DNA of 64,000 bases. Source: Tetrahymena thermophila SB210. Lineage: Eukaryota > Ciliophora > Oligohymenophorea > Hymenostomatida > Tetrahymenidae. Positions within the stretch are counted from its first letter, which is position 1; every line of letters begins with the position of its first letter. The stretch covers positions 62,001 through 126,000 of the forward strand of contig NW_002476523.1 in NCBI RefSeq assembly GCF_000189635.1. Direction: 5' to 3'. Below, in pieces: positions 2,319 through 50,500 of the stretch. The notes beneath the pieces are model-generated. The model saw only the letters and a list, made by a program, of their open reading frames with translations. It made no database searches and was not told the DNA's origin. Made by a program: the position numbers and the translations under genes.

Positions 2319-2943
2319 ATAAAAATATCTTAAATTGCTATCTTTTATTAAATAAAAGTTGTAAAAATATGTTTTGTGTAAGTATTTCGTTATTAATGGT
2401 TGTAAATTTACTATCTAAATTTGTATAAAAATTTCATTTTTTTTTCATAAATACTTATGATAAATTACAAATAACTATTTTTAGTTAATTATTTAAGCAT
2501 TTATTTACAAAAGATTTACTTAATCTTATTTCAATGAGAACACTTAAAGATTTCTTAGAATATATTTAAGAGTTTTTTAATTATTTTTAAAAATTCAACT
2601 TTTATTAAATATAAATTTATTCACTCACATATTTTATTCGTTAATTTTATTAAAATATTTTTTTTATATAAAAAATAATAAGTTCAATGAATTAATGTCT
2701 CCACTATCTACTAATAATTTTATAATTTAAGTTTACATTAAGTAAAATAAATTACTAAATAAATTACTTTTAAGATTGCGATCATAAATATAAACTATTG
2801 GTTTTTCTATTAAATTATTATTAGCGCTTTATACAAATAAAATTGAATATTAAATTTTATAAAGATTATTAGGAAAATCTAAAAATTTTTAAAATAAAAA
2901 TTCATAGATCCACTCATTCATCAATAAAATATAAAGCTAATTA
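2319..2943. other. Intergenic AT-rich spacer
   Basis: About 620 bp of A/T-rich sequence between the small membrane protein gene and the CDPK gene. No coding frame or RNA gene recognised. It presumably contains the CDPK promoter. Confidence 0.6.
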
Positions 2944-22686: not shown

Positions 22687-24301
22687 TCATGCATTAGTAA
22701 AATAACCTCCATGAACTTTATTTAAATGACCATAAACTTCACTTTCAGTTTTGGCTGAAAAGTAGCAAAGATAGCAATAACTTATTTTGCAATTTGTGCA
22801 TATAATTCTATTGCATCCACCTGTTCTTTACGTTAAAATTGAACAATTTGGACAAAATTTAAAACCTTATGCTTCTAGCTCTTTTCTATAATCTTTATTA
22901 TTTTCCATCTTCCATTTTTAATAATTTTCACAACTAAAACCATCATGAGTTGAATCACAATTATTAAGACAAAATTCATATTTACATTTTGTGCATTTAT
23001 GCCTGAGTTTCTTTTCTGATCTATCTTGAATAAAAGTGAAATTACAATCTACAATTATCTCATTATCTTCTAAAGGAATATTTGCACTGCCTTGCCTTTA
23101 TTTTTCTATTTATTCTTTAGGGATGTATATAACCTTTTCACTTCCTTTTTAAATCTTATATTTTCCCGGACAAACAATAAGTTCCTCCATAGAATTAGGA
23201 TTCTCTCTTTTCATTCTTTCAAACATTGATTTGATATTTTTTTATTCTAACTTTTCTATCATTTCTTTATCCTCTTGTAAGATAAAAGTGATGTCATCAA
23301 AATCTAGCACTTTTTTGCAATCTCCATTTGGACAAAAAATATTTTCTAGTTCTAAATTTATATTTTCTTTCAGCGAGTTTTATATACTATCTTTTAAGCA
23401 GCTCCTACAAAATTTACAGCCACATTTTAAAATGTAGCCATTTTAATTTAAATCTATCTCTTCTAAACAAATAGCACACTAAAATTCAATCACTTAATTC
23501 TACTTTTCTAATTCCAAAATTTATTGGTACTTCTTCTCTTTTTACTATTATGCTTCGAAATATTCAAATTGATACATTTGAACTTCTTTAGTTGAAAGCG
23601 CTTATCTAATCATTTGAATATTCACAAGATTAGAAGCACAACCTTAATCACATTAAATACACTCATTTAATAGTTATTCAACTTTTTCTAAGCTCTCAAA
23701 TTTATCCTTATTTTGAAGAATTTGTTCTCTCAAACATGCGTGATGACAGAAAAAACAACACTAACAATTTAATTTAAAAATTTGATTTTATTAGTAATCA
23801 TCTTTTTTAATCATATTGTGGCATATTTTACAAAGCACTGATGTCAACTGATTTAGTTTTACTTTAGCCTTTTACTTACATAGAAAGCTTATGGCATCTA
23901 TTGATTGTAAATATACTAATTCATTTAGTTCTAAAAAGTTTCCTTTAAATACGTTGCTTAATATGTCTTCTAATTAAAATTATTATTGATACATTTGATT
24001 TGTTTTGATTTATTCTAAATTGCTTAACTAATTTTTATGATTTATATCATCAAACAATTCTTACTAAAATTCTTTTAATAATCGATATACAGAATATTAG
24101 TTAAGTGGAAATAAAAACAAAAAGTTAGACAAATTATAAGCTGCAATATTCTAACATCTTAAAAACTTCTTAAAAATAAGTAAACTAATTTTAATTTTTT
24201 TAATTTACTTATTTCACTAAACATTTATAATTTACATACCTCCTAGATAATTGATTAATATAAAATTAACTTGATAAAATAATATTCTAGAGTTCCTACA
24301 T
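22687..24301 (-). CDS. RBR-type E3 ubiquitin ligase, copy 1
   Basis: 519 residues; exons 24301-24240 and 24184-22687, intron 55 nt (GTATGT..TTAG). Order: helical N-terminus; a first Cys-rich finger at about residues 139-195 (CKIC, CQCC, CHHAC, CIQC); RING1 from Cys257 (CAIC, CGCKFCRSC, CPNGDC); an IBR with CTKCKYEFC and a His/Cys pair; RING2 at about 460-495 with CPNC, GGCNRI, CTNC and CYLC. RBR ligases take ubiquitin from an E2 onto a RING2 cysteine before passing it to substrate. That cysteine aligns with Cys478 in GGC (codon 22815-22813), and it is present. The extra N-terminal finger is unusual. Its tandem paralogue follows on the same strand, and two ubiquitin-like fusion genes lie just beyond. 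Start codon choice rests on frame and splice and is less certain than the body. Confidence 0.85.
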
Positions 24302-24893: not shown

Positions 24894-26210
24894 TCATGCA
24901 TTGCCCCAATAACCTCCATGCTTTTCTCTTAAATGAGCATAAACTTCATTTGCAGTTTTAGCAGAAAAATAGCAAAGATAACAATAGCTTATCTTACAAT
25001 TCGAACATGTAATTCTATTACAACCGTCTGTTCTAAAAGTTAAAACACAACAATTTTCGTTTGGACAAAATCTAAAACCTTAGGCTTCAAGCTCTTTCCT
25101 ATAATCTTTAGAATTTTCAATCTTCCATTTTTGGTAATTGCTACAACTAGTATTTTCATGAGTTGAGTCGCAATTGTTGAGACAGAATTCGTATTTGCAC
25201 TTAGTACATTTATGCCTGAGTTTCTAAACAGATTTGTCTTAGATAAAAGTGAAATTACAATCGACTAGCATCTCATTTTGTTCCAAAGGAATGTTACCTT
25301 TTCCTTATCTCTATTTTTCTATTTAATCTTATGGAATTATAATTATTTTAGAATCATCATTTTTATTAATTTTATATTTTCCTGGACAAACTATAAGTAC
25401 TTCCTATATATCTGGGTTTTCTCTTTTAGCCTATTAAAAAGTAGAAATGATATTTTTATACTCTAACTTTTCTAGCAATTGCTTGTCATCTTTAAGAATA
25501 GAATTAATATCATCAAAGTCTAATACTTTTTTGCAGTTCTCCATTGGACAAAAAATATTTTCAAATACAAAATTTATATTGCCATTTAATGCTTCTACTA
25601 TACCTTATTTTAAACAATCTCTACAAAATTAGCATCCACACTTTAAAATATAGCCATTCACATTTAAATCAAGATCTTCCATACAAATTAGGCATTCAAA
25701 ATTAATGACTTATTTCTACTTTTCTAATTCTAGCTCTTTTTATTCATTTATCACCTTTTACTTCTAACTTTCAGAGTAATTAAACAAATAAATTTGGATT
25801 TCTTTGGCAGAAAGCACTTGTTTAATCATAAAGACGCTAAAAATATTATTAACGCATCCATAATTGCATTTAATATTTTAATTTATAATCTCCTCAATTC
25901 TTTCTATGCTTTCAAATTCATCTTTATTTTGAAGAATTAATTATTTTAAACATAGTTTATGGCAGTAATCATTACATTAACAATTTAATTTAATAATCTA
26001 ATTCTATTCTTAATCATCTTTACTTATCATATTTAGGCAAATTCTGCAATGGACTGAAGCTAACTATCTTAATCTCACTTAAGCCTTTTATTTACATAAT
26101 ACATCTAATGCATAAATATATTTAGAGATTTCTTGCAAACCTAGCCTAAGGTAATTGTTTTGAAATGCTTCACATAAAGTATCTTCTAATTCCTATTTGT
26201 CCTCAAACAT
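24894..26210 (-). CDS. RBR-type E3 ubiquitin ligase, copy 2 (5' end uncertain)
   Basis: 438 residues from ATG 26210 to TGA 24896-24894, no intron needed. It aligns with copy 1 through all zinc-binding modules: N-terminal finger (CRIC, CQCNDYC), RING1 (CLICMEDLD, CGCQFCRDC, CPMENC), IBR (CTKCKYEFC), and RING2 with CPNENC and the catalytic-type Cys397 in DGCNRITC, then CYLC. The glycine before the catalytic Cys is preceded by Asp rather than Gly. Homology with copy 1 continues upstream of this ATG for about 35 codons but meets an in-frame TGA at 26312-26310, so the original 5' end is broken or lies in an unrecognised exon. All zinc and catalytic residues survive, so a shorter active enzyme is possible. 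Confidence 0.8.
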
Positions 26211-27079
26211 TTTAATATTCTTATTAATTATCAAATCTTGTCTAATAGCTTTCTAAAATATACACAAATCATACAGAAAGTTAATTTTGATACTTAATAT
26301 TTTATATAATCATGTTAGAATATTTAATATATTCCTCTCTTTTCTTAAATGATCTTTTTTCTTAACATCTTTAAGTAATATTGGATATTTAAAATAAACA
26401 AGTAATCATCTATCTCTTTTATTTTGATGACTATCAAAATTTTTTATTATATTTATTATAGCAACTCTTAAAATTAAAAAATAATTTCCATTTTATTTCT
26501 TTTGCTATCAGCGCAATATAGAGAGAGGACTTATCTTATTTTATATATTAATATACAATATTTTAGAATCAGTTTAAACATTTTCAGATCAGGGAATATA
26601 CAAAATTAGTTAGCTAAAAATCATAAAAATTAAATAAAACATCACCGTCTGGACCAACACAGTTGATGATATTTAATTTCTGAATATATAAAATTAAAAC
26701 ATTATATAAAATAAATTAAATTTTAATATGAAAAAATACATTTTTAAACAACTAAATTCATAAAAAAGTACATTTTTTATACATTTAAAGAAGAATACTC
26801 ATCTTATTTGATTCTTTATTTACTTAATAAAAAAGATAAATCTCTTATAAGAAAGATATTTATTAATTATAAAAGAAAAATCTCTTATAAGAAAGATATT
26901 TATTAATTATAAAAGAAATAGATATTTTGTTATTATATTTCATCAGATTCATATATAGATAACTATAAAAATCATCCTATCTTTCATAGATACATTTCAA
27001 AAGCAAATCTGATGCGTATAAAAAATTATAATCATTATTTAAAAATAAATACACTAATTTAGTTATTAAAAAAAATTTG
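26211..27079. other. Intergenic region upstream of divergent genes
   Basis: Separates RBR copy 2 (-) from the first ubiquitin-like fusion gene (+), so it should hold two divergent promoters. It includes the 40-bp tandem duplication at 26841-26918 and, from about 26711 to 27079, a block repeated upstream of the second fusion gene. A short GC-richer stretch near 26640-26675 reads as a plausible peptide on the - strand (CVGPDGDVLF), possibly a relic exon; weak. Confidence 0.5.
26841..26918. repeat. 40-bp direct tandem duplication (2 copies)
   Basis: The unit beginning TCTCTTATAAGAAAGATATT occurs at 26841 and again at 26881, identical over 38 bp. The equivalent position upstream of the second fusion gene has only one, diverged, copy, so the duplication postdates the gene duplication. 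Confidence 0.9.
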
Positions 27080-29308
27080 ATGGAATCAGAAAAACCATAA
27101 GATTAAGGGAATAAAGTTAAAAAATTCTTTATAAACCTAAAAGAGCCAAGTGACAGTTTTGCTATTGAACTGAGCCAAGTAGAATTGCAGAACATAACCA
27201 TAATAGAGCTATTAAAGAAAGCAAATAATGTCTATAGCTTTAACCATAAATTTTGTCACATGGAGAGAATAGGAAATTAATTTTAAAATGTATCTGAATA
27301 TGATAAAAATGAGAAGTTAATCAGTTCATATTTCAATCTATTCCCTTTTTATTTTGTTCCTATAAAATTTTTTAAGATAAATGTTTAAATTTAAGAAGAG
27401 AGTTATCTCTTTGAATTACCAAAAGCAACAGATTAAAGAAAATTACTATATTATCTCTCAAACGAATTAAAAATAAATGTGAAACAGCTTTACTTACTGA
27501 GTGAATCTTAGACTTTGAAGAATCAACTTTCCTCTTATTCTTAAGTTAATCTTTTTGTAGCTAATGATAAAATATTTTATGATGAAATAGAAATATATGT
27601 AAATTTAAATTTGAAAGTAATAGATAATATCGAATTATTTAACTTTGCGCATAGAAATGACATTTATATAGGAGATTAATTAATTTCTAAAAATGAAACA
27701 TTTGCTCATTCAGGAGTGAAAAGTGGAGATAAACTCTACTCTTACTATTTTATCAAGGCTCAAATTAAAGATGTGCAAACTTAAATCAAAAGCAACTTTA
27801 CAAAATAAGAAGCAAAAGATTTATACAATAAATATTACCCAAAAGAATAAGGTAGAATCATCACTGAGATGATAGGAGACACTTTACATATCAAATTAAA
27901 TAATGATGTGGAAATGATGCTTTTTATCAAATCTTTATCAGGAGCATAATATGATATAGGAGCTAATGGAAATAATACTATTGGCTAAATAAAACAAAAA
28001 TTATCACCTTTATCAGGAGTAGAATGTGAATTTATGAAGCTTATATTTTGTGAAAGGTAGCTAGAAGATAATTTAACTTTGAACAATTATAAGATTAAGG
28101 ATGAAAGCACTATAAATTTAATTTTAGTAAAACCAACAAAAATAAAAGATAACTCAATTTTGCAAGAAAGTGAGATATCAATATAAATTAAAACTCTCAC
28201 AGGTTAAACTTTAGCCTTCAAATGCAAACTTAATCAAAAAGTATACTAGTTAAAAAACTAAATTTAAGAATAATTTTAAATTTCCCCAAGCTAGTAGAAG
28301 TTAATTTATGCAGAATAATAATTAGAAGATGACTAATAATTGTATTGTTACAATTTATAAAGTGATTGTGTTGTACATCTTGCTTAGACATTAAAAAAAG
28401 ATATAGAAATACAGTAGTAGCCTAAATAATAATCATAAAAATAACATAAATAAGAAAATAAATATATAAACATTTAAATAAAAACTATCGCTAAATCATT
28501 TTAGTTGAAGTGTAAATTGTATGATTCAGTAGAGATCTTAAAATACCGCATCTAAGATCATGAAGGCTTACCTTTAGATTGGCAAAGATTAATCTTTAAG
28601 GATAAATAAATTGAAAATGATTATTCTTTAGATATGTATGAAATAGATGATGGGGATATTATACATTTGGTACTTAAGTTGAGAGGTGGTGGATGTCCTG
28701 AAGAAAAAAAACTATTTGTTAACCTTGAAAATGAAAAATCTAAAAAAGAAGTAGAATTTTCTGAAAATGCACCAGAATATAGACAAGCTATTAAGGGATT
28801 AAATATTGAAGCTATTTGCCTTAATTCTAGTTGCAAGTACTTTAAAAAGTAAGTTATCATAAAAATAGGCTACAGCTTTGTAGAAATAGTAGCTGATAAC
28901 TAATAAAAAATAAATTGCCCAGGATGTAGTATACTTCCATAAGTAATTACATGTGGTTTCGTAAACTGTCAATATTACTGGTTTGGTTTAAAAATAGAAA
29001 ATGGAGTTGAGAGAAAAGTATAATCCAAAATACTTGAAGCACGTTATGATAAATATACTACATATGATCCAGTAAAAGAAAACGGATAATCAAATATGGT
29101 AGAATGGAAGCTTCTTTATGTATTTGCAAATTAAAGTACCCTTACATTTCCTAAATGCTATATTTGTCTAAGAAGAATATTTTATGAAGAGGAAATGACT
29201 CACTCTGAATAATGCTTGGATAAATAAAATCACAATTACCATATTGACTGTCTTTAAAGTTTATAGCATTTAGAAAAAAAATGTTTATTATGTTTAAAGT
29301 ATTATTGA
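27080..29308 (+). CDS. Tri-ubiquitin-like / Cys-rich / RING-like fusion protein, copy a
   Basis: 742 residues, single exon, ATG 27080, stop TGA. An N-terminal ~265-residue region of unknown fold is followed by three ubiquitin-like domains at about 268-351, 365-438 and 462-538. The second opens ISIQIKTLTGQTL and the third ends IHLVLKLRGG, almost the ubiquitin tail (LHLVLRLRGG). After Gly538 comes Cys-Pro and a Cys-rich module (CLNSSC, CPGC, CGFVNC with a nearby W-F-G), then a C-terminal RING-like finger (CYIC, C, HNYH, C, CLLC; about 690-740). Known ubiquitin-family precursors are cut after Gly-Gly, so cleavage here could release a conjugatable modifier from the finger domain; that is inference. 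A similar Cys module after ubiquitin-like domains exists in other protists as far as I recall. Copy b lies 3.4 kb downstream. Confidence 0.85.
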
Positions 29309-30457
29309 TTTAATTAACAATGTATTAAGAATATAATGAATGAAGAAGATTATAATATATTTGAAAGTGTTTAATTTACAGTTTGATTTTATTGTTCTAT
29401 AAAAGTAATTTAGAGGAAAATAAAATATTTTTAAATTTAAACTAGTTTTCTATTTATAAATATTTAATATCATATCAGAAATTAAGTTATTATGAAGATT
29501 TTTATGAATTATCTTTTATCAAATATTTACTTAGTGCATATATCATTAAATAAATATTCATAATTTCAAAAAAACATTACCAAAAAAAAAATTTATAAGC
29601 TAATTTTTAGAAATTTTTTTAGATAATTAATAAAGAAATAATCTTAATCTTGTGGTATATACAATTTATAAAGTTCTTTTGAATTAAAGTATTATACAAA
29701 ACCAAATATTTTTTATTAAAACAAAATAAAAATTGATATTATTTGTTAATTTATATAATATCTTTATTTTAATTCAATTATCAATTGATTTTAAGGTAAT
29801 ATTTTAAAATTTACTTTTGTTTAAAAAATAAATGATGCTTCTTATTTGTTATAATTATTTTTTTAATAAGCAATTTTTTACTATTAAAATTTACAAATCA
29901 ACTAAGTACTGTTGGCATTTTTGAAATATAAAATCTTATTAGGGTTGTTTAATTAAATATAGAAACAAATTTACTTTGCGCTCACTATTGATATTTTTGA
30001 AATATAAGATTTGGTTAGGGTTGCTTATTAATTATAAAAACAAATTAAAGTGTCTTACAACCTCAAACTTAACTAAGAAATAGATATGGTTAAAATATAT
30101 TGAATAAAAAAAAAAAATTAAATAATATATTATTAAACTAAATTTTAATATGAAAAAATACATTTTTAAACTACTATATTCATAAAAAGATACTTTTTTT
30201 ATACATTTAGTGAAGAATACTCAACATATTTGATTGTTTATTTACTTAATAAATAAGATAAATCTCTATTAAATAAGATGTTTATTAATTTCAAAAGGGC
30301 ATGATGTTTTATTGTTATATTTCATCGGATTCATAAAGAGCTAGATAAATCATCCTATCTTTCATAGATACATTTCAAAAGCTAATCTAATGTTTACAAA
30401 TAATTATAATCTATATTTAAAAATAAATTCACTAAATTAGTTATTAAAAAAACTTTG
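29309..30457. repeat. Spacer between fusion genes with a ~76-bp direct repeat
   Basis: No gene seen. Two imperfect copies of a block with TTTTTGAAATATAA and TTAGGGTTG begin at about 29918 and 29994. From about 30136 the sequence matches the upstream flank of copy a (26711 onward), marking the left edge of the second duplicated unit; 29309 to about 30120 has no counterpart. Confidence 0.6.
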
Positions 30458-32695
30458 ATGGAATTAGAAATACCATAAGTTGAAGAGAATAAAGTTAAAA
30501 AATTCTTTATATGCCTATAAGAGCCAAATGATAGTTTTACTATTTAACTGAGTCAAGAAGAATTAGAAGGCTTATCTATAAAAGAGCTATTAGAGAAAGC
30601 AAATAATGTCTATAGCTTTAACCATAAATTTTGGCGCATGGAGAGAATAAGAAATTAAATTTAAAATCTATCTAAATAAGATGAAAATGAGTAGTTAATC
30701 AGTTCACATTTCAATCTATTCCCTTTTTATTTTTTTCCTTAAAAATACATTTTTGAAATTGATGTTAAATTTTAAGAAGAAACTTATCACTTTGAATTAC
30801 CAATAGCGACAACGCAAAAAAATTTACTAGAGAATCTCTCAAAAAAATTAAATATAAATGAGAAACAGCTTTACTTACTGAGTGAATCTTAGACTTTGAA
30901 GAATCCATTTTCCTCTTATTCTTTAGCTAATCTTTTCGTAGCAAATGATAAAATATTTTATGATGATAAAGAAATATATGTGGATTTAAATTTGAAAGTA
31001 ACAGACAATATTCAATTATTTAACTTTGCACATAGGACAGACATTTATTTGGGAGATTAATTAATTTCTAAAAATGAAACGTTTGCTCATTCAGGAGTGA
31101 AAAATGGAGATAAACTCTACTCTTACTATTTTATCAAGGCTCAAATTAAAGATGTGCAAACTTAAATCAAAAGCAACTTTACAAAATAAGAAGCAAAAGA
31201 TTTATACAATAAATATTACCCAGAAGAATAAGGTAGAATCGTCACTGAGATGATAGGAGACACTTTAAATATCAAATTAAACAATGATGAGGAAATGATT
31301 CTTACAATAAAATCTTTGTCAGGAGCATAATATGATCTAGGAGCTGATGGAAATAATACTATTGACTAAATAAAACAAAAATTATCTTCTTTATCAGAAG
31401 TAGAATGTGAATTTATGAAGCTTATATTTTGTGGAAGGTAGCTAGAAGATAATTTTACTTTGAACAATTATGAGATTAAGGATGGCAGTATTATACATCT
31501 TGTCTTAAAACCAGGCGCAAAAATAAAATTTAATCCAATTTAATAAGATGGTGAGATATCAATAAATATTAAAACTCTCACAGGGTAAACTTTAGCACTA
31601 AAATGCAAACTTAATCAGAAAGTAGAGTAGTTAAAGAACTAAATTTCAGAATAACTTGAAATTTCCCCAACCTAGTAGAGGTTAATTTATGCAGGATAAT
31701 AATTAGAAGATGACTAATAATTGTATTTTTACAATTTATAAAGAGATTGCGTTGTACATCTTGTTTAGACATTAAAAAAAACTGTTGAAATATAGTAGTA
31801 GCCTAAATAAAAGTCATTAGAAAAACATAAATAAGAAAATAAATTTTTAAACATTTAAATAAAAACTCTCACTGGAAAATAAATTTAGTTGAAGTGTAAA
31901 TTGTATGATTCAGTAGAGATCTTAAAATACCACATCTAAGATTCTGAAGGCATTCCTATAGATCAGCAGAGATTAATCTTTTAGGGTAAAGAAATTGAAA
32001 ACGATTATTCTTTAGATATGTATGAAATAGATGATGGGGATATTATAAATTTAGTACTTAGGTTGAGAGGTGGTGGATGTCCTGAAGAAAAAAAACTATT
32101 TGTTAACCTTGAAAATGAAAAATCTAAAAAAGAAGTAGAATTTTCTGAACATGCACCAAAATATAGATAAGCTACTGATGGATTAAATATTGAAGCTATT
32201 TGCCGTAATTCTAGTTGCAAGTACTTTAAAAAATAAGTTATCATAAAAATAGGCTACATCTTTGTAGAAATAGTAGCTGATAAATCATAAAAAATAAATT
32301 GCCCAGGATGTAGTATACTTCCATAAGTAATTACATGTGGTTTCGTAAACTGTCAATATTCCTGGTTTGGCTTAAAAATAGAAAATGGAGTTGAGAGAAA
32401 AGTATAATCCAAAATACTTGAAGCATGTAATGATAAATATACTACATATGATCCAGTAAAAGAAAACGGATAATCAAATATGGTAGAATGGAAGCTTCTT
32501 TATGTGTATGCAAATTAAAAAGAAAGCCTTAAATTTCCTAAATGCTATATTTGTCTAAGAAGAATATTTTATGAAGAGCAAATGACTCACTCTGAATAAT
32601 GCTTAGATAAATAGAATCATATTTGCCATATTGACTGTCTTAAAAGTTTATTGCATTTGGAAAAAAAATGTTTATTGTGCTTAAAAAATTATTGA
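30458..32695 (+). CDS. Tri-ubiquitin-like / Cys-rich / RING-like fusion protein, copy b
   Basis: 745 residues, single exon, ATG 30458, stop TGA. Collinear with copy a: N-terminal unknown region, three ubiquitin-like domains, Cys-rich module, RING-like finger (CYIC, CHIDC, CLLC). The third ubiquitin-like domain ends INLVLRLRGG with Arg537 and Gly538-539, identical to ubiquitin in the last eight residues, followed by Gly-Cys-Pro. The second domain opens ISINIKTLTGQTL. Differences from copy a are scattered substitutions without frameshift, and all zinc ligands I can see are kept, so both copies look functional. The 5' flank is shared for about 320 bp. The neighbouring RBR ligases make a shared ubiquitin-signalling role plausible, but the sequence alone does not show it. 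Confidence 0.85.
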
Positions 32696-33073
32696 TTTAA
32701 TTAATTAAAAAGTATTAAGAATATAATAAAAGAGAGGAGGGTTATTTTTATGTTAGCTAATTAAAAAATTATTTGATTATGTTATAATATTTTTTAAATC
32801 AAAATTTTTTTTTGGGTAATTATTTAATAATTTCTAGTAATTTTAATAAATAAGCATTTCTTATCATGAAATTTATATTTATTTATTTCAAAAATTAATT
32901 TTTTTTAAGCTTATTTAAAAATTTTTATTTAAGAATTTATTTTTTTATTTACTTTTTATTTTAGATTTAATAAGTTTCATATGTAGTTTTAAAGAAATTT
33001 AACAAATAAATAAATTATACAAAAATATAAGGTCAACATTAATTAATTACTTCATTTTTTATAGTTTTTTATT
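32696..33073. other. Convergent intergenic spacer
   Basis: About 380 bp of A/T-rich sequence between the stops of fusion copy b (+) and the first surface protein gene (-). Nothing else recognised. Confidence 0.6.
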
Positions 33074-36000
33074 TCATAGTTAAATATTTTATTTTGATAA
33101 TTACTCATAATTTTGTTATTATTAATCTTAAAACTAATTTAAATCACTATAAGATGATTAATGAATCTATTGTTGTACCTCATATCCATGTTACTAGTTG
33201 TAACTTAATTGATTTTACTACAATTATTAATTATATTACTCAAGATTTATTTTTCTAACATCACTTAAGGTGTTTGAAGAAATAGATAATTGCAATTGAA
33301 AGTCATTATTATTATTCTAAATTATTTTTTTAAAGACAAGCTAAACTTTCTTTATATTTTTTCTCTTTTTTTCAGTGTATTTATTGTACCTTAGCGCTTT
33401 CACATATTTTTATATCCATAAATAGCATTTGTAATCTTAAAGTTTATAAAGAAAAGGCTGCATAATTGAAACACATATCTAACCTATCATATAAGCTATA
33501 AATATTAGTGACAATAAATTTGCAGAAGCTACTAATATTTAAGAAAATGTGTTGTAATAATCAATGCTTTGATTATTTTATTTTTGAGCTAAATCTTATT
33601 TTCGTAAAGAATAATGAATCATATAAGCTATCATATACAGACTACCTATTACAATTGATTTGATTTCCATCTCATTAAGCTTTTTAGTAATATAAGGATA
33701 TTTTTTTACTAGAAATATTAAATAGAGTATCAGTGCTGCAAGAGAAACAAACCCAATTAGATAAATAAATGATAGGAAACTATATACTGTCATGATTAAT
33801 ATTAATTTCAAAATAAACCTTAAATATTCCCAATAATAAAACTTTTGCTTAAAGTCAGCATACAAGAAACCTAACAAAAAGCGAAAACTGATTTTATCAA
33901 GATTCTCACGATTTTTGTAAAGAAGGTAAAACAAAATCCCTGGAATAATTATAGAGTAAACTAAAATAAACGGAACCACAAAGCTAAATAAAAAGACTAG
34001 TCGATTTGTATTATTACATTCAATATTAAAATCAAGTATTGAATATGATTGGCCATTATTAAAAGTACGGCAGAGCATTCCTGAAGTTAGCACGTCTATT
34101 ACTGGAATGCAAAAGAGATTCGTAAAACCATAAGAGATAATTAGAGATGCAGAATATTAGAAATTTTTAATGCTTGATTTGCTAAAGAACTTCTTCAAAA
34201 GACTTGGAATTATGCAAATAAAAACTATGCAAAAAGGTGTTAGGGTTACTATTGCCATCTTTTTGTACATGATTGAATCAGGGTTTTCATTTATTTTAGA
34301 TAAAAAACAATCAAAAGAAAAGAAAGAATCTGCCACTGGATTGTATAAACCATACTAAAAGCTAAAAGCTTTTGTCCATCCATAATCATTATTAAAATAA
34401 GAGGAAATATTGATAATTTAGAAATAAAAGGAAAGAATCTTGATATAAGAACCGCTTTATCCTAGTCTGTAGTATGATTTTCCTAAATAGATGATTTTCA
34501 TATCTGATAAATATTTCTTGTAAATGTAATTTTTTTACTATCTAAAATTTGTTTTGAAAATGATTAATATTACTATAAATACTAAAATTAATAGGGATAT
34601 AATCTTGATAATATTATTCGAAATATTCTCACATTTAGTGCATTAAGATAAATTTTTCCTACTATATGATCCATTACCTAACTTATTATACAGATCACAT
34701 TCAGAACACTCAACTCCAATATGACCTTCTGCGCATATAAAATCTCCTTTATATTTTAAAAAATATTTCAACATTAATTGAAGCTAATAATAATCATAAA
34801 TAATGAGGAATTTTTAAAAATGATAACTGCAGTAAAATTTCTGACCTATTAGTTCTTAAATAATTATTCAAATATAATATGGTATACTAAAAAAACTGAT
34901 TTTAATAAAAATTCAACAAATAACTGGTATTAGTTAAGTAATGATTTTACAAATAAATTATTATTTATTTATTTGTCAAAAATTTTAGATGTATTTAGTT
35001 TATTAAAAAATACAAGGAATAGTTATGAATAATGAAAATATTTAATTATAAATAAAAATAACCTGTTTTATTTCCTCCTAAACAGTTAGATCTGCTTATA
35101 GAACAAGGGAAGATTTATGATGAATCTACGGTAAGGTTTTATCTCCAAAAACCTTATTTTAATGAGGAATAGTCGGCGTAGCATGAATCAAAATAATCTT
35201 TTGAGCATGAAAGACATCTGGTTGCTATCTTATTTGCGTTATTTTAATATATTACAGAATCTAAGCAATATTAACAATATTGAGATTTTTTAAAAGTCTA
35301 TTGTATCATTCCGTTAGAGCAATTGGAAGTAATATTTGATTCTATAATAAATCCAGGTAGATAATCTATATAACTGGTATTAAAAAGAGTAAAAAGTCCA
35401 TAAAATTATGTTTCTGTACTTTCATATTATAGAGAAAAAGAAAAAAAAAGCTTGTTTATTTTTAATGGAATCGTTTATGTAGCTTATATTGGGATTTAGT
35501 TGAAAATATCCTGCCCAATCACTATTGGTGTTAGGTCATTTAAATTATGTATTATGACGTTCGGGTTTTTTATATCAAGGATCCAGTCAAGCTCACCCTC
35601 TAATTTGACAGAAAAAGCAGCAAAATAAGTTAATCCATTATACATTCTATCTGTTTGATAATCACCTTGATCAAACTCATTTTTAAAAGTATATTTCTTT
35701 ATTTGATATGGTGGTTCTAAATATTAATTATATTCAGCTATTTATGTGATTTTAATATCTGTAATAAATTTACACACGTCGTTACCTTTTATCAAGGCTA
35801 AATTATTTTCAAAAATAATACCTTCAAGTATAATTTTCTTAGTCATCAAATATATTCCACCGCCAAATAATGACTCATTCTCTTTAATAAAAACTTCTTA
35901 AGCAGGTAGAATCTTTCCTCCAAAAATAGCTCCTCCTGCAAAAAGGCTTTTATTTCCCAGAAGCAGCACCCTATTCATTTAAATAGCACAATCTAAGAAA

Positions 36001-37831
36001 AATGCTCCACCATTTTTTAATGAAGTAAAATTTGACACATAAATATCTTGCAATAAAGCACTCTAACATTGTAAATATGAAAAGGCACCATCAGCAGAAG
36101 AACTGAGTAAACCTTATGAGTAGATATGAGATAAATTAATTATTGATTGATCACCACCATATATATAAAGAATGCCTCCTTGATTTCCTGAATGTTACAC
36201 TTCATCAGAAAATTAATTTTAATAATTAAAGTAAAAATTAGATATATTAGTATTTAGTGATGCCTAGACATGAATTAAACCTCCAAACATACTTTTAAAT
36301 TAGCATGATGGATAAATAATAGCAGAAATATTAAAAATACTAACATTATTAGCATTATTAACAGTTATTAGACCACCTTAATATGATTGAAAATACTGTG
36401 ATGAAGTAATATTAATATTAGAAATAAGAACACTTTTATATCTATCTACACTTATAATTCCATTTTACCCACTAATGTAATTAATTTAAGGAAGCTCTAT
36501 ATTATTGATTTAGAGGGAACTGCCTAAATTTTAACTATCATAAAAAACAAACATTCCATAAGAATTCCATAAATTTTAAACCTTCTAATCTTTTGAGTCA
36601 TGAAACACAATTGAATCTATAAGTGTAGACTAACCGCTGTTACTGATTAATAATAAACCGTATCTGACATTATAAGAAAATACATCAATTCTTTTAATTT
36701 ATACATTTTGCATTAGAAATTCTGTGGAATCATCACAGTTTAAATCAAATAGCACAGGTTTTATCTCTATTTATTTTTTTTAAGAATAAATCAATAAATT
36801 ATAATAATTTTAATGAATTTATTGATAAATTAATATAAATACCCAGTCCAGTAAATATTGATGAAGCAGAAACCTTTTTTTATGCTACAAAAATTTTTTA
36901 GATGTTGATTTAATCAATATTAACTTTAACATTAACTTATTGAGATCTTTAGCTATTTTGATAAGAGCAAAATTATAGCAAAGATTGTTGCAGATCTTTT
37001 ACTTAAATAAGATTCAGAGTCTTCAAATAAACTTGACTGTAGCCTTGAAAAGTAACAACTGTAAGAGAGCTATATTGATTGTACTTTCCCACATAACTTA
37101 AGTCAAACTAATTAATAGAAATATTTTGAGATTCAAATATTAGCGTCGGAATACTATTTTATTCCTCATTTAAACCTAAATAGTCTATCATCAAATTTTA
37201 TTTGCTTTATAAACTTAAGTAAAGTGTTTATTGTGTATTTTTAACATTAGCTAAAAATTAAGATATTTTTATTGAATCCATGATATTTTGAAATAATATT
37301 TTAATCAATTAGTTGACATCAATTTTTATGCTAAATTCTAAATTCTAAATAGTTAAAAAGTTTACATTTTAAATATTTATTTCTTATGATTTCCATACAT
37401 CAACATATTTTTGGTATTTAATTTTTAAATTTTGTACTGTAATTGATTTTCCATTATCTATCTAAATTATTTTTTTAGAGTTGGAATTATTAATGATGTA
37501 TACTTCTTCAATAATTATTAAGGAAAATTAAATGGTATTCACATTAACAAATTATATCCCTCCATTCATCCTAAAGTTTGTTAAATTCAGCCAAATACCA
37601 GTTAAATCTTAATGATTGCAATCAGCTATAATATTGAACTATTCATCGCATTTAACTAAAAATCCTTATCCTATTAAAGCATTTACAACTTAACTATTAC
37701 AACTATCTTTTTTAAAAATTGAATAAATTTACATATTCTAATATAAAATAGTTTAAAATACCATCTTAGAGAGCTAATCTAATAAAAGATAGTAGAATTA
37801 CAGCTATTATATTTATATTTTTTATATTCAT
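33074..37831 (-). CDS. Surface protein: signal peptide, beta-helix-like ectodomain, C-terminal multi-pass domain, copy 1
   Basis: 1,436 residues in four exons: 37831-37762, 37706-36843, 36766-35063, 34746-33074; introns 55, 76 and 316 nt. The N-terminus (MNIKNINIIAVILLSF) is a signal peptide. About 850 residues follow with short beta-strand repeats rich in Asn, Ile and Ser and motifs such as GGAIF and GGGIY, as in right-handed beta-helix or Pmp-type surface proteins. Next comes a Cys-rich patch (CLSCSKDYFDSC, then CAEGHIGVECSEC, EGF-like) followed by several transmembrane segments. One contains an LLGFLYADF motif and another a YYWEYLRF motif. The tail is Gln/Asn-rich and probably cytoplasmic. 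Membrane proteins of this build are abundant in Tetrahymena. I infer a cell-surface role in adhesion or sensing; no enzyme or channel signature is decisive. A tandem paralogue lies upstream on the same strand. Confidence 0.8.
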
Positions 37832-38776: not shown

Positions 38777-41700
38777 TCATAACTAAATATCTTACTTCTG
38801 CAGTAATTCATAATTTTATTATTATTCCTCAATTTATATTAACTTATTTAAATCGCTGTTAGATTCTTAAGAATTTTATTTTTATGTGTATTAGTATAGT
38901 AGTTAATCATCATTATCTTTTTACTATTATTTTTCTTGTTATAAAATTGATTCAGATTCTTTAAAGCAACTTTAAGACTTTGATGAAACAAAACACTACA
39001 TTTGAATATCATTTATACTATTTTAAATTATTATTTTAAATACCATTTAAAGTTTCTTAATGTTTTTTCTTTTTCTTTCAGTGTATTTCTTGAATCTTAA
39101 TACTCTTAAATATTTTTATATAAATTTATAACATCTATAATCCTAAAGTTTATAAAGATGAGGTTATAGAATTGAGATACATATCTAACCTACCATATAA
39201 GCTATAAATAGGAGGGACAATATATTTGTGCAAACAATTAAGACTTATGAGAAGACGTTATAAGAGTTCATGCTTTAATTCTTTTGTTTTTGAGCTAAAT
39301 CTTACTCATACAGTGAAAAATTAGTCATTTAAGCTATCAAAAATAGACTGCCTATTACAATAGACTTTACTTCCATTTCGTTTAGCTTTTTGGTGCAATA
39401 AGGATATTTTCTTACTAGAAATATTAAGTAAAGTATAAGTGCTGCAAGAGAAACAAAACCAATTAGTTAAGTAAATGATAGGAAACTATATACTGTCATG
39501 ATTAATATTAATTTTAAAATAAACCTTAAATACTCCCAATAATAAAACTATTGCTTAAAGTCTGCATACAAGAAACCTAACAAAAAGCGGAAACTGATTT
39601 TATCAAGATTCTCACGATTTTTGTAAAGAATGTAAAATAAAATTCCTGGAATAACAACAGAGTAAACTAAAATAAATGGAATCACAAAACTAAATAAAAA
39701 GACTAGTCGATCTGTATCATTACATTCAATATTAAAATCAAGTATTGAATATGATTGACCATTATTAAAAGTACGGCAGAGCATTCCTGAAGTTAGCACA
39801 TCTATTACTGGAATACAAAAGAGATTTGTAAAACCATAAGAGATAATTAGTGAAGCAGAATATTAGAAATTTTTAATACTTGATTTGCAAAATAGCATGT
39901 TCAAAACACTTGGAATCAAACAAATAAAAACTATGCAAAATGGAGCTATAGTTACTATTGTTATCTTTTTATACATAATTGAATCAGTACTTTCATTTAT
40001 TTTAGCTAGAAAACAATCAAAAGAAAAAGCAGAGTCTGCCACTGGATTATAGAATCCATATTAGAAATTAAAAATATTTGCCCATGATTTCTCTCCATAA
40101 AAATAAGAAGATATATTGATAATTTAGAAATAAAAGGAAAGAATTTTGATATAAGAACCACTTTAACCTAATCTATAGTAAGATTTTCCTAAATAAATTA
40201 TTTTCATGTCAGATAGGTACTTCTTATAAATATAATTCCTTTACTATCTGAAGTTTGTTTTGAAAATAATTAATATGACAATAAATACGATTACCAAAAG
40301 TATGATACTTTTTATGATATTGCCAGAAATTTCATCGCACTAAGTACATTAGTAGATGTTTTTTCTGCAAAATGATCCATTTCCCATTTAATCGTATAGG
40401 TCACATTCAGAGCACTCAACTCCAATATGCCCCTCAGCACATATATTGTCACCTTTAAAAATTAAATAAATTTAATTGAAAAACTTTTTTAAATTTGCTA
40501 TATTTCAATAGTTATTAGATTTTTATTTAAAATTTAACAATTATTTTTTTTGATATCTTAAATAAAATTTATTAATAAAACTCATCCAATTTATTTTTTA
40601 TTTAAATTTCATAAATATGATTTAAAATAAATTAAAAATATTTTAATGAATTTTTGTAGTGATTTAATAAAAAATTACCTGTATAATTTCCTCCTATGCA
40701 GTTAAATCTATTTATAGAGCAAGGGAAAATTTATGAAGAGTCTACTGTAAGGTTCTATCTCCAAAACCCTTATTTTAGTGAAGAAAAATCTGCATAGCAT
40801 GATTCAAAATAATCTTTAGGGCATGAAAGGCATTTTGTTGGTATTTTTTTACTTTAATTTTGATATACAACAGAATCAACACAATATTAACAATATTGAG
40901 AACCTTTAAAAGTCTATTGTATCATTCCATTAGTACAATTAGAAGTAATATTTGATAAAATTGTAAAAATTAAGGTTTTAGGTTACTAAGTAGTGTTAAA
41001 AGGAAAAAATAGTCCAAAAAATTATGTTTGGCTGCTATCATATTAAAAAGAAAAAGAATAGAAAAATTCATTTGTTTCTAATGGAATCGTTTATATAGAT
41101 TAGATTGGTGCTTGATTGAAAATATCTTCACCTTATATTTAGGGAGTTAAGTCATTCAGTCTATTTTCTAAAACAAAATCATTTTATGTATATTCAATCC
41201 AATCAGATTCATCTTATATACGCATTGAGAAAACAACAAAATAAGTCAGTCCGTTATAAACACTATTTACTATATACGATTCACCATCATCTTAATATAA
41301 TAAAGTATAATTCCTGATTTGGTATGGTGGTTCTAAATATTAATTATATTCAGAAAATTACTTTATTTTTATTTCAGCAATATATTTGCATGTATCATCT
41401 CCTTTAATATATCCCAAATTAGACTCAAATTTTATATCTTAATAATAAGAAAGCATATTTGCTAAATAAATTCCTCCTCCAAATAATGATTAGTTTTCTT
41501 TGATAATTACGTCTTAAGCTGAGGCAATTAATCCGCCAAAAATAGCTCCTCCTGCAAATTAGCTTTTATTTCTAATCAGCTAAACGTTAGTTAATATAAC
41601 TTAACAATCTAAGAAAAATGCTCCGCCATTTTTTAATGATGTAAATTCTGAGATAAAAATATCTTCCAGTAAGGCATTTATACATGATATATATGCAAAT

Positions 41701-43421
41701 GCTCCATCAGCAGTAGAAATAAATTCACCTTAAGCTTTAACTTCTTAAAGAGCTAAGTATGATTAATTATCAGTATAAATATATATTATTCCTCCTTATG
41801 TTCCTTAATGTTGAACCTCATCTGAAAATTAATTTTAATCATTAAAAGATAAATTTGTGATTTCTGTATTTTGCGAAGTTTTTATATAAATCAAACCTCC
41901 AAACATGCTTTTAAATTAGCACGATGGATAAATAGTAGCAACAATATTACTAATTTTAACATTATCAACATTGTTAATCGTAAATAAACCACCTTGATAG
42001 GATTGAAGGTGTTCTGATGAACTGACATTTACATTAGAAATCGACAAAGAAGAAAATTAACTCACACTTATGAGGCCATTCTATGCACTTACAAAATTTA
42101 TTTAAGAGAAATCTATATTATTGATCTCTAATTAGCTATTAGTTTATGAGCTACCCTGAAAAACGAACATTCCATTAGAATTCCATAGATTAAATACTTT
42201 TTAATCTTATTAATGAAAAACAATTTGATTAATAACTGTATTTATACTGCTGAAACTGACCATGAATAAAGCATTTTAGATATTATATTAATAAACATCA
42301 ATTCTTTAAATATTTAGATTTTGTTTATATGCGTTGCTTATGCCAGTACAACTTAAGTCAAAGAGAACGGGCTTTCCCACTGCTATTTAATATTTAAAAT
42401 GTTAATTTGTTTGTTTTTTATTTTAAAAATATACCATAATCATTCTCAATAGACTAGATAGATGTTTTTTGTTTCCCTCTTGAAAAATTTTAAACTACAA
42501 TTGAGTCTATACTAATATTATTAAATTATGTTGCATCTTTACTTTGATAAGTAGAACAAAATTAAAATAGAGATAACTATAAATCTTTAACTTAAATTAT
42601 ATTTATTGTCTTTATATTAATTGATTTGTAGTCTTAAAAAATATTTACAGCAGAACCTACATAACTAAGAGTATTAGATATAACTTTTATATCAAATTAG
42701 CCAATCTGTATATTTTAAGAACTAAATAAAAATTAAATCACTTAATTCTATTATATTAAATTTAAATTATCTATTGCAATACTATTAGTGCTTTTAATAC
42801 CTAAATCCACAGATCCTAACTTTGTTTAAACATTAACATTTAATTAAGATATCTTAATTTAATCTTAGATGTCTAAAATTAAAAAATTAAATGTAGCATT
42901 TGTTTCACTATTTTCAGTAATACTATAATTTTATATTGTTAATATATTTATGTTTTTAATCTATATCATTTAGGTTTAACCAGAATAAGAAAGCTTTGTG
43001 TATTTGATGATAAAGTTTTAAATTGTGATTATGTTACCATTATCTATACAAAATAAACCCATAGAATTTGACTAATTGCTCATATATGTATCTTGAATCT
43101 AAATTAGCGAAAACTAAATGTTATTGATATTAACAAATTAAATTCCACCTCTTAGGTTTAAATTTGTTAAATTCAACTAAATATCATTCATATCCTTGTG
43201 ATTGCAGTCTGCTATAATATTTGATTGCGAATCGCATGTAACTTAAAACCCTTATGTTATTAAATTCTCCACTATTTCTTAATTGCAATTATCTTTTTTT
43301 TATTTTAAATTATTTAAATTTGTAACAAAAATGGTTAAAAATAAATACCATTTTAAAGAGTTGATGCTATTATAGTCAGTAGAATTATAACTATTTTAAC
43401 AATATCCTTGATCCTTATCAT
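38777..43421 (-). CDS. Surface protein: signal peptide, beta-helix-like ectodomain, C-terminal multi-pass domain, copy 2
   Basis: 1,436 residues, the same predicted length as copy 1, in four exons at matching positions: 43421-43349, 43292-42435, 42382-40679, 40452-38777. The third exons are both 1,704 nt. Signal peptide MIRIKDIVKIVIILLTIIA, then the Asn/Ile-rich repeat ectodomain with GG-I-(F/Y) motifs, the Cys-rich patch with GHIGVECSEC, and the membrane domain with the MLCRTFNNGQSYSILDFNIEC segment nearly identical to copy 1. The membrane domain is better conserved between copies than the ectodomain and the Gln-rich tail, as expected if the outer part diversifies. Intact frame throughout, with TGA stop. 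Function unknown; same inference as for copy 1. Confidence 0.8.
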
Positions 43422-47568: not shown

Positions 47569-50500
47569 ATGAAATTAACAACAAAAACTTAGAAAATCAG
47601 AATGTTTCTTTTGATTATTTTACAAAGTGAAATTTTTGATTGATATTTTATGTAAAAAAAATTATTTATTTCAATAATTAATTAGTCATAAAACACTTAT
47701 ATGCTGTTCCTATTTACGATTGCTCAACTAATGTGAATATTGATCATTAGAATCCTCAATGTAAACTTATTATGAATTATTTATTTAATTATTAATTCAT
47801 TTTTATAAACTTAAGTTAGACTTTGCTTAATTAATTACGGAGGTCCCGCAAATCAATCTGATTAAAACACCATGAAATAATATTTCTAAGATACGTATTG
47901 CTTAAATTCAGAAAAATATTCATATGACTAACAATACTACTTAACAGGTAGTAGTTGTACTTCAAATAGTGAGATAAAAATACAATATAACTCGTAAAAA
48001 AATTATTAATAAAACATATATTATTTTAGCAAGATATTAATCTTTTCTTAATCAATATTTCAAATTAATTTATTTTTAATATTAAAGAAAATTCACAATT
48101 GTTTTTAAGATATTAATTTGATATTTATAAATTTTTATACATAAATTAGGACTAGAAAGATATATTCCTACTTTTTACTTTATTACCTTTATACATAATA
48201 TCCTCCAAACGATAATTTAAAATCTATATTCGAAATAAATAATGTCAGTAAACTAAGCGCTATGGGATATATTGATTAATTTAACTAGGTTTATTCTTAA
48301 AATTATTAATCTGTGTATTAAGCAGGCTTATATATAAATAGCTTAACAATTAAAATAACTCCATTTAATATGAGCTTTGATAAATAATATCAAATTTATC
48401 TTAACTAATTTTTTCTAAGCGTATAATTGGTAAATTTAATTATTAAATTTATTAATATAATGAGGCATAATATAACCTTGGTTAATTAATTAAAAAATAA
48501 ATAATATATAAATTAAAATTATTAATAGACCAAATAAGTATTTTTAGAAAAAGCATAATAAATTTTTTTTGATTTTAATTTTAAAAAAATATTTTTCTGA
48601 AAATCTGAGCTGATTTTTTAAATTTTAACCAAGCAAAATTTTAAAAATTATAAATATGATTTACACTAAAAAACATTAACTTAAAATTTATAAAAAGTGC
48701 TAAGATAATTGTGACTCATGTGATTATAATTAAATATGCTAATAATGTTCTCTTGGGTTTTATTATTAGCATGCATCAAATTAGTGTCTAATTTGTGATA
48801 AGAACTGTGCAAGTTGTAATGGTCCTAGCTCAAGTAATTGCTTAACGTGCAATCCAGGATTATATTTTGATAATACCTTAAAATAATGCATCATTTGTGA
48901 TCCAACCTGTAAAACTTGTGATGGTTCAAGTTCTAATAATTGTTTATCTTGCAATATTGGAATTTATTATAACTAATCTACAAAACAATGTATCTGTGAT
49001 CCAACCTGTAAAACTTGTGATGGTCCAACATCTAACAGTTGTTTATCTTGCAATATTGGAATTTATTATAACTAATCCACAAAACAATGTATCTGTGATC
49101 CAACCTGTAAAACTTGTGATGGTCCAAGTTCTAATAGTTGTTTATCTTGCAATATTGGAATTTATTATAACTAATCCACAAAACAATGTATATGCGATCC
49201 AACCTGTAAAACTTGTGATGGTCCTACTTCTAATAGTTGTTTATCTTGCAATATTGGACTTTATTATAACTAATCCACAAAACAATGTATTTGTGATCCA
49301 ACCTGTAAAACTTGTGATGGTCCAACTTCTAATAGTTGTTTATCTTGCAATATTGGACTTTATTATAACTAATCCACAAAACAATGTATTTGTGATCCAA
49401 CCTGTAAAACTTGTGATGGTCCAACTTCTAATAGTTGCTTATCTTGTATGATTGGACTTTATTATAACTAATCCACAAAACAATGTATTTGTGATCCAAC
49501 CTGTAAAACTTGTGATGGTCCAACATCTAATAGTTGTTTATCTTGCAACATTGGACTCTATTATAACTAATCCACAAAACAATGTATCTGTGACCCAACC
49601 TGCAAAACTTGTGATGGTCCAACATCTAATAGTTGTTTATCTTGCAATATTGGAATTTATTATAATTAATCCACAAAACAATGTATCTGTGATCCAACCT
49701 GTAAAACTTGTGATGGTCCAACATCTAACAGTTGTTTATCTTGCGATATTGGAATTTATTATAACTAATCCACAAAACAATGTATTTGTGATCCAACCTG
49801 TAAAACATGTGATGGTCCAACTTCTAATAGTTGTTTATCTTGTATTATTGGACTTTATTATAACTAATCCACAAAACAATGTATTTGTGATCCAACCTGC
49901 AAAACTTGTGATGGTCCTACATCTAATAGTTGTTTATCTTGCAACATTGGACTCTATTATAACTAATCCACAAAACAATGTATTTGTGATCCAACCTGTA
50001 AAACTTGTGATGGTCCTACTTCTAATAGTTGTTTATCATGCAATATTGGAATTTATTATAATTAATCCACAAAACAATGCCTTTGCGATTAAACCTGTAA
50101 AACATGTGATGGTCCTACTTAATATAATTGTTTAACATGTAACTCTGGATTATATTATTAGTAAGCTTCAAAATAGTGTGTATAGTCTTGTAATAACAAC
50201 TAATTTGCTAATTTATTACTCCAATAATGTGAATTATGTGATAATAGTTGTGCAAGTTGTTATGGAAAGGACTCTAACAATTGCTTAAGTTGTTACCCTA
50301 ACAGCTTTCTCTACAACAAAAATTGTATTAACCCTTGTCCGAATGGGTTTTAAAGTAATTTTACTTCACTAACATGTGATTCATGCTAATATTATTGGAG
50401 CCTATAATGCAATCCCTGCTACCCAAGCTGTTAACTATGTGATTAATCATAGATTTTAAATAAATAATGTAAGACTTGTTATAAAGAAACAAGAATATTA

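Follow-up and report, generated by a model that had tools for sequence, protein, structure and literature searches.

A candidate family of RING-H2 E3-like proteins with ubiquitin-like domains in Tetrahymena thermophila

Two tandem genes and their domain order

We analyzed a stretch of 64,000 nucleotides from the ciliate Tetrahymena thermophila SB210 (contig NW_002476523.1, positions 62,001 to 126,000, forward strand; hereafter the window), which is read with the ciliate code (NCBI table 6), in which TAA and TAG encode Gln and TGA is the stop. Two tandem genes on its forward strand, copy a (27080..29308, 742 amino acids, aa) and copy b (30458..32695, 745 aa), each consist of a single intact frame that requires no intron and ends in TGA. 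A first-pass annotation of this DNA described both as fusions of three ubiquitin-like domains (UBLs) with an LRGG tail to a Cys-rich module and a RING-like finger, and the reading frames, the matches to the Pfam ubiquitin model and the spacing of the finger bear this out. What that description left out is a stretch of some 280 residues at the N-terminus. Both proteins thus begin with an N-terminal region of ~280 residues, continue with three UBLs, and end in a module of six cysteines followed by a RING-H2-like tail.

Copies a and b are recent tandem duplicates. Their proteins are 81% identical, and the genes lie within duplicated units (26712..29317 with copy a and 30134..32704 with copy b, both on the forward strand) that are spaced by ~3.4 kb and extend into the upstream sequence of both genes. 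Across the whole gene, the synonymous divergence (dS) is 0.147 and the nonsynonymous divergence (dN) is 0.096. DNA identity reaches 94–96% at 28600-29199, which covers the Gly-Gly junction and the Cys module, versus mostly 83–91% elsewhere in the gene, with a single interval (27700-27849) at 98%. At 0.048, the synonymous divergence of the Cys module is also below that of the whole gene (on rounded counts, Fisher p 0.005). These sequence patterns are likely explained most simply by gene conversion at the junction and in the Cys module, and the tail common to a and b thus amounts to roughly one observation rather than to independent evidence. The first-pass annotation had stressed that both copies keep the Gly-Gly tail; they do, but given the low divergence of the Cys module, this agreement carries little weight.

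Three stretches per protein match the Pfam ubiquitin model (E 1.4e-48 for a and 8.8e-56 for b). In copy a, these are UBL1 (27914..28132), UBL2 (28172..28396), and UBL3 (28466..28690, residues 463-537), which are identical to human ubiquitin at 26/71, 28/74, and 34/76 positions, respectively, with one residue deleted in UBL3. In copy b, UBL1 (31295..31513), UBL2 (31553..31777), and UBL3 (31847..32074, residues 464-539) share 26/72, 32/74, and 40/76 positions with human ubiquitin, the last without a gap. All six, encoded on the forward strand, score well above shuffled sequences in comparison with human ubiquitin (z-scores of 24.6 to 35.3, 300 shuffles each), and by these measures UBL3 is assigned the ubiquitin fold; a full-length structure model (mean predicted local distance difference test, pLDDT, of 27.5, with all residues below 50) holds no fold information. 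Gly-Gly is confined to UBL3 in both proteins and is absent from UBL1 and UBL2. The tails given by the first-pass annotation, LVLRLRGG in b and LVLKLRGG in a, each followed by Gly-Cys-Pro, are exact in the translations. In copy b, the final eight residues (positions 69-76) are all those of ubiquitin, and the domain retains Arg42, Arg72, Leu73, Arg74, Gly75, and Gly76, while UBL3 of copy a has Lys at ubiquitin position 72 and is altered at positions 40 and 47 as well.

The Cys module directly follows the Gly-Gly, at 28691..29140 in copy a and 32075..32527 in copy b, where its cysteines are residues 582, 587, 615, 618, 627, and 632. Similar Cys modules occur in other protists and in fungi. Neither Pfam nor the PDB profile searches give a significant match to ours. 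The RING-H2-like finger closes both proteins, at 29156..29293 in copy a (residues 693-738) and 32543..32680 in copy b (ligands C696, C699, C715, H721, H724, C727, C738, and C741), with the spacing C-x2-C-x15-C-x5-H-x2-H-x2-C-x10-C-x2-C. When the last 60 residues were shuffled 100000 times, a loose form of this pattern never arose for copy a and arose twice for copy b.

The N-terminal region (27080..27913, residues 1-278 in copy a; 30458..31294, residues 1-279 in copy b; both on the forward strand) contains no known domain in copy a. In copy b, residues 1 to ~279 return only insignificant matches (Pfam SecDF_P1_head, E 0.07; NCBIfam, E 0.19 and 3.4; PDB, E 1.5 and 1.9). Further hidden UBLs were likewise not found here, as pairwise comparison of four stretches of the copy b region with ubiquitin gives z-scores of 1.1, 0.7, 0.0, and -0.2, and a UBL profile together with hhalign yields no ubiquitin signal.

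Relatives in the host genome

Across the host assembly (101 Mb in 445 contigs, with the window at C50:62001-126000; all counts of places are lower bounds), we observe, apart from numerous ubiquitin loci, two further full relatives, p31 (locus L031 on contig C22, 564 aa) and p32 (locus L032 on contig C172, 591 aa), each with one UBL joined to the same Cys module. The N-terminal region of copy a is conserved in both, and a genome search with the N-terminal region of p32 returns the four UBL-bearing genes. When the search is made with the C-terminal part alone (the Cys module and finger), at least five places are found, the fifth being weak (E 1.5e-4, contig C439). The open frame at this place, p44 (locus L044, 533 aa), matches p32 across 211 alignment columns (E 2e-7, in a nine-locus database). 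A genome search with p44 recovers p44 itself and, weakly, copy a (E 5.8e-4) and p31 (E 0.025), and one with the C-terminal part of p32 returns only the four UBL-bearing genes and not p44. The p44 protein, in which Pfam finds no ubiquitin match, has the finger and a partial Cys module. The kinship of its N-terminal region is weak (hhalign E 0.003 in one comparison, with a probability of 9.6%).

The number of UBLs per member across the family is therefore 0, 1, 1, 3, and 3. Because p44 has the finger and a partial Cys module without a UBL, the UBL is, as far as sequence tells, a dispensable part of this RING-protein family and not essential to its core. With p44 as the one outgroup, the UBL may have been gained in the four genes or lost in p44.

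Although the UBL-bearing genes fall to as little as 35% identity with copy b over the whole alignment, all four keep Arg-Gly-Gly directly before the Cys module, and the six module cysteines and eight finger ligands are invariant among them, as are the residues corresponding to Arg42, Ile44, and Lys48 of ubiquitin. The residues on either side of the Arg-Gly-Gly vary more. Positions 72-73 read RL in b, KL in a, CQ in p31, and RL in p32, the p31 tail being LVLCQRGG (R72C, L73Q). The residues after Gly-Gly are GCP in both a and b, and VTA and ATA in the paralogues, such that the Gly-Cys-Pro emphasized by the first-pass annotation holds for the tandem pair and not for the family. That annotation had also named orthologues lacking Gly-Gly as evidence that would speak against it; in this genome, no UBL-bearing paralogue has lost Gly-Gly, and the fifth member is without the entire UBL.

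All five members found have the same eight finger ligands, which follow the RING order C3-H2-C3. When the finger of copy b alone is searched against the PDB, three matches are returned (E 0.46-3.1), all named E3 ligases; two are RING proteins, and the third is named only E3 ubiquitin-protein ligase. A four-row profile of the C-terminal part returns 16 matches at E<=10 (best E 0.013), every one of which is a RING E3 by name. With the five-row profile, 21 of 22 matches are RING E3s, led by RCHY1 (E 1.4e-4) and RNF165 (E 2.6e-4), and the sole non-RING match is an unrelated fly protein (E 0.11). Among the profile matches is EL5, which we take to be a RING E3.

Origin of the ubiquitin-like domains and competing readings

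The genome's own ubiquitin is identical to human ubiquitin at 74/76 positions, in a gene that reads as ubiquitin-eL40. The UBLs that end in Gly-Gly share 34 to 53 of 76 residues with it, with p31 the closest (53), followed by p32 (44) and UBL3 of copy b (40). These three domains thus resemble this ubiquitin (70, 58, and 53% identity) more than they resemble each other (39-49%), and in a ten-row tree, ubiquitin sits on a zero-length branch, with only the three a/b pairs well supported. Such a pattern is consistent with real ubiquitin having been fused in once or several times, with the copies then decaying separately. Simple arithmetic on the 53, 44, and 40 retained residues gives chances of ~5% that both Gly residues, and ~1% that Arg-Gly-Gly, would be retained in three lineages by chance, and Gly-Gly is therefore probably under selection. 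As a separate observation on ubiquitin in this genome, by our count at least 40 of 66 matches from one search of the host assembly fall in contig C169:503815-523278, an apparent polyubiquitin gene array of ~20 kb.

On balance, we lean toward interpreting these genes as a small family of ciliate RING-H2 E3-like proteins with built-in UBLs, and we infer E3 activity, zinc binding, a role for the UBLs, and the absence of conjugation. Such a family would be built from the N-terminal region, zero to three UBLs, the Cys module, and the RING-like finger, and its UBLs would go back to ubiquitin placed by fusion after the N-terminal region and before the Cys module. The finger would recruit a charged E2, and the N-terminal region and Cys module would select the substrate or the place of action. 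The built-in UBLs would act unconjugated, perhaps bound by partners that recognize the Ile44 surface of ubiquitin, Ile44 being a residue that each UBL-bearing gene has retained. Alternatively, a tethered UBL may aid the finger permanently, as free ubiquitin aids the RING of Ark2C/RNF165, to our knowledge a protein without a built-in UBL. One PDB chain, 7r70, carries the name 'Ubiquitin,E3 ubiquitin-protein ligase RNF165'. For Ark2C/RNF165, an additional ubiquitin bound to the RING is reported to prime transfer and activate it (PMC7594095).

Of the two readings that the first-pass annotation offered, a self-processing modifier source and a ligase carrying UBLs, the latter is better supported, with finger ligands invariant in five of five members, a C-terminal profile that finds RING E3s, and one UBL-free member. 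The absence of Gly-Gly from UBL1 and UBL2 counts for built-in domains, as does the presence of a near-invariant ubiquitin elsewhere in the genome. Several observations weigh against the E3-like reading. Arg-Gly-Gly is retained in every UBL-bearing gene, and the last eight residues of UBL3 match ubiquitin better than the rest of the domain does (8/8 vs 32/68 in b, p 0.002; 7/8 vs 27/68 in a, p 0.008), a feature for which a never-cleaved domain would have no use. The Pfam RING models fall short of their cut-off on a and b (E 3.4-8.4), and at E<=10 none matches p31 or p32. Once p44 is added to make a five-row alignment, the number of invariant module cysteines drops from six to four. Finally, an AlphaFold model of the finger (61 residues, two rows, pLDDT 74.7, predicted template modeling score 0.56) has no RING among its eight PDB fold matches (best E 4.5). 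Because this model rested on two near-identical rows, we regard the sequence evidence for a RING as the stronger. The gap between Cys3 and His4 is five residues in four members and one in p44, and in ordinary RING-H2 fingers it is shorter than five; the p44 finger, with ordinary C-x-H spacing, reaches E 0.001 with zf-RING_2, still below the Pfam cut-off.

A less probable but serious alternative is that the genes encode precursors of the ubiquitin-eL40/eS31 type, in which a deubiquitinase would cut after Gly-Gly and free a Cys-module/RING protein of 205-206 residues, the UBL serving as a folding helper or expression tag and not as a modifier. The low odds of chance retention favor this possibility, as does the finding that Arg-Gly-Gly abuts the same Cys module in four of four genes, with the next residue being Gly, Gly, Val, or Ala and never Pro, whereas UBL1 and UBL2, which do not abut the module, are without Gly-Gly. 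Fast cutting of ubiquitin fusion precursors has been reported (PMC8122580). The UBL-bearing genes do carry, by sequence, a ubiquitin-like domain that ends in Gly-Gly and is joined to a partner, but with 34 to 53 of 76 residues shared with the genome's own ubiquitin, the domains lie under the 80% ubiquitin identity taken as the limit in that survey. What counts against precursors is that the N-terminal region is conserved along with the C-terminal part, which suggests one working polypeptide, and that a UBL-free member exists. The tail of p31 also argues against cutting, having Cys and Gln at positions 72 and 73, where Arg72 and Leu73 of ubiquitin are read by deubiquitinases and by E1.

We consider it improbable that the Gly-Gly is simply a relic, in UBLs that descend from ubiquitin and have yet to lose the tail, with no cutting, conjugation, or role. 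The greater closeness of p31, p32, and UBL3 of b to ubiquitin than to one another, the zero-length ubiquitin branch, and the already altered positions 72 and 73 of p31 would all agree with a relic, but Arg-Gly-Gly has been retained in four of four genes while 30 to 55% of the UBL residues changed. Least likely of all is a conjugated modifier, that is, a three-UBL conjugatable protein and its own E3 made as one precursor, cut apart, and then cooperating. It seems highly doubtful that a deubiquitinase makes the cut, that the freed C-terminal part is the E3, and that the LRGG-ended multi-UBL fragment is activated and conjugated; if true, one gene would supply modifier and ligase in a one-to-one ratio. 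UBL3 of copy b, which keeps the six ubiquitin residues from Arg42 to Gly76 listed above and is followed by an E3-like finger, is in line with such a modifier, and the retained Arg-Gly-Gly likewise speaks for the modifier source of the first-pass annotation. However, position 72 of ubiquitin is read by E1, and it is not conserved here, being R, K, C, and R in b, a, p31, and p32; Gly-Gly is kept in all four. The LCQRGG of p31 and the Lys72 of copy a argue against a conserved conjugatable modifier, as do the divergence of the UBLs from the genome's own ubiquitin and the 463 extra N-terminal residues, which would be unusual for a modifier.

The family represents a natural experiment in which ubiquitin was apparently fused into a RING-type protein, is present three times in one lineage, and has kept its Gly-Gly in every UBL-bearing gene, beside a UBL-free member. 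Such a system allows a direct test of how a covalently attached UBL affects a RING ligase, and of what preserves Gly-Gly where the domain seems ill suited to conjugation.

Comparison with known systems and the surrounding sequence

The joining of ubiquitin to a RING is already reported in two algae. Bigelowiella natans has a ubiquitin-RING fusion with two ubiquitins (273 aa), and Guillardia theta has fusions of 145 and 199 aa (Sibbald et al. 2019, PMC6332867). The Tetrahymena genes resemble these in placing ubiquitin-related sequence in one frame with a finger, a zinc RING in the algae and a RING-like finger here. Unlike the algal fusions as described in that article (145 to 273 aa, one or two ubiquitins), they encode some 280 residues ahead of the UBLs, UBLs that are diverged and number three or one, and a module of six cysteines between UBL and finger. 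The graded number of UBLs also sets them apart. If comparable, our genes add a ciliate case to the algal fusions. Zinc-finger partners of other kinds fused to ubiquitin are noted in PMC8122580 and PMC11354881. As in the ubiquitin-eL40 and ubiquitin-eS31 precursors (PMC8122580), a ubiquitin fold ending in RGG is joined directly to a Cys-bearing partner, but here the partner has no ribosomal-protein match, the UBL is diverged from the genome's own ubiquitin to the extent given above, and an N-terminal region is added.

The RINGs of the RING-H2 E3s RNF165/Ark2C and Arkadia are among the best PDB matches of the C-terminal profile, with the match confined to the finger. The E3s parkin and HOIL-1L combine a UBL with a RING-IBR-RING (RBR) unit. 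Our genes are similar in having a UBL and an E3 finger in one chain but differ in having a single RING-H2-like finger, and no Pfam IBR match is found in a or b at E<=10, whereas IBR matches are present in two neighboring genes. Ciliate BUBL proteins are long proteins with several UBLs, one ending in LRGG, and a BIL domain. Copies a and b resemble them in these features except for the Hint/intein (BIL) domain, which the first-pass annotation had also failed to see: at E<=10, Pfam yields no Hint match in either copy, and the same library detects Hint and intein in a BUBL-like gene of this genome (L034:203-3685, forward strand, contig C91). This gene has five ubiquitin-like stretches, two Hint/intein-like domains, and, at its C-terminus, a match to ADP-ribosyltransferase (E 2.3e-6); an LRGG lies directly before Cys-Phe-Val where a Hint domain begins.

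Searches of viral contigs, genome contigs, and plasmids yielded no relatives. In viral contigs, a two-row profile gave 27 pattern matches and a five-row profile gave 49, with no relative among either, and three DNA-pattern scans gave no convincing one. A tblastn comparison with the translations of 16 viral pattern loci gave, at best, a match to the C-terminal part with E 0.005 (L019, in a 22-locus database), which was taken as chance. One pattern scan of genome contigs gave six loci, which we rejected, as their translations contain stops and the likeness is limited to the pattern (best match to the C-terminal part E 0.003, over 19 residues of L001). A plasmid collection gave no match. Open-access literature searches found no naming of this ciliate family, and the excerpts of a Tetrahymena proteogenomics paper (PMC12615304) and a ubiquitin review (PMC11354881) make no mention of it.

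Adjoining copy a on the reverse strand are two tandem RBR-type E3-like genes (22687-24132 and 24894-26267), which are 64% identical, separate from a and b, and matched by Pfam IBR just below the cut-offs. The best PDB relatives of the gene at 22687-24132 are ARIH2 (E 5.4e-9) and RNF31, and the genome contains at least 11 places related to it at E<=0.001. A conserved pairing with the family was considered and rejected: neither RBR protein is matched (E<=0.01) within ~9 kb on either side of p31 or p32, and the adjacency to copy a is therefore probably incidental.

Downstream, also on the reverse strand, 33074-36932 and 38777-42704 hold two tandem sets of frames with translations that appear similar by eye and a part resembling a multi-pass membrane protein; two of the frames were tested and gave no Pfam match at E<=0.001. 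At 48656-50857 on the forward strand, we observe a Cys-rich protein that matches the Pfam Giardia VSP model (E 2.2e-11) and in which units of the CDPTCKTCDGPTSNSCLSC type, nearly identical to one another, recur about a dozen times. Near the start of the window, a kinase domain and EF hands lie across two overlapping frames (2695-5063, forward strand), which are probably parts of a single gene for a calcium-dependent protein kinase, separated by an intron.

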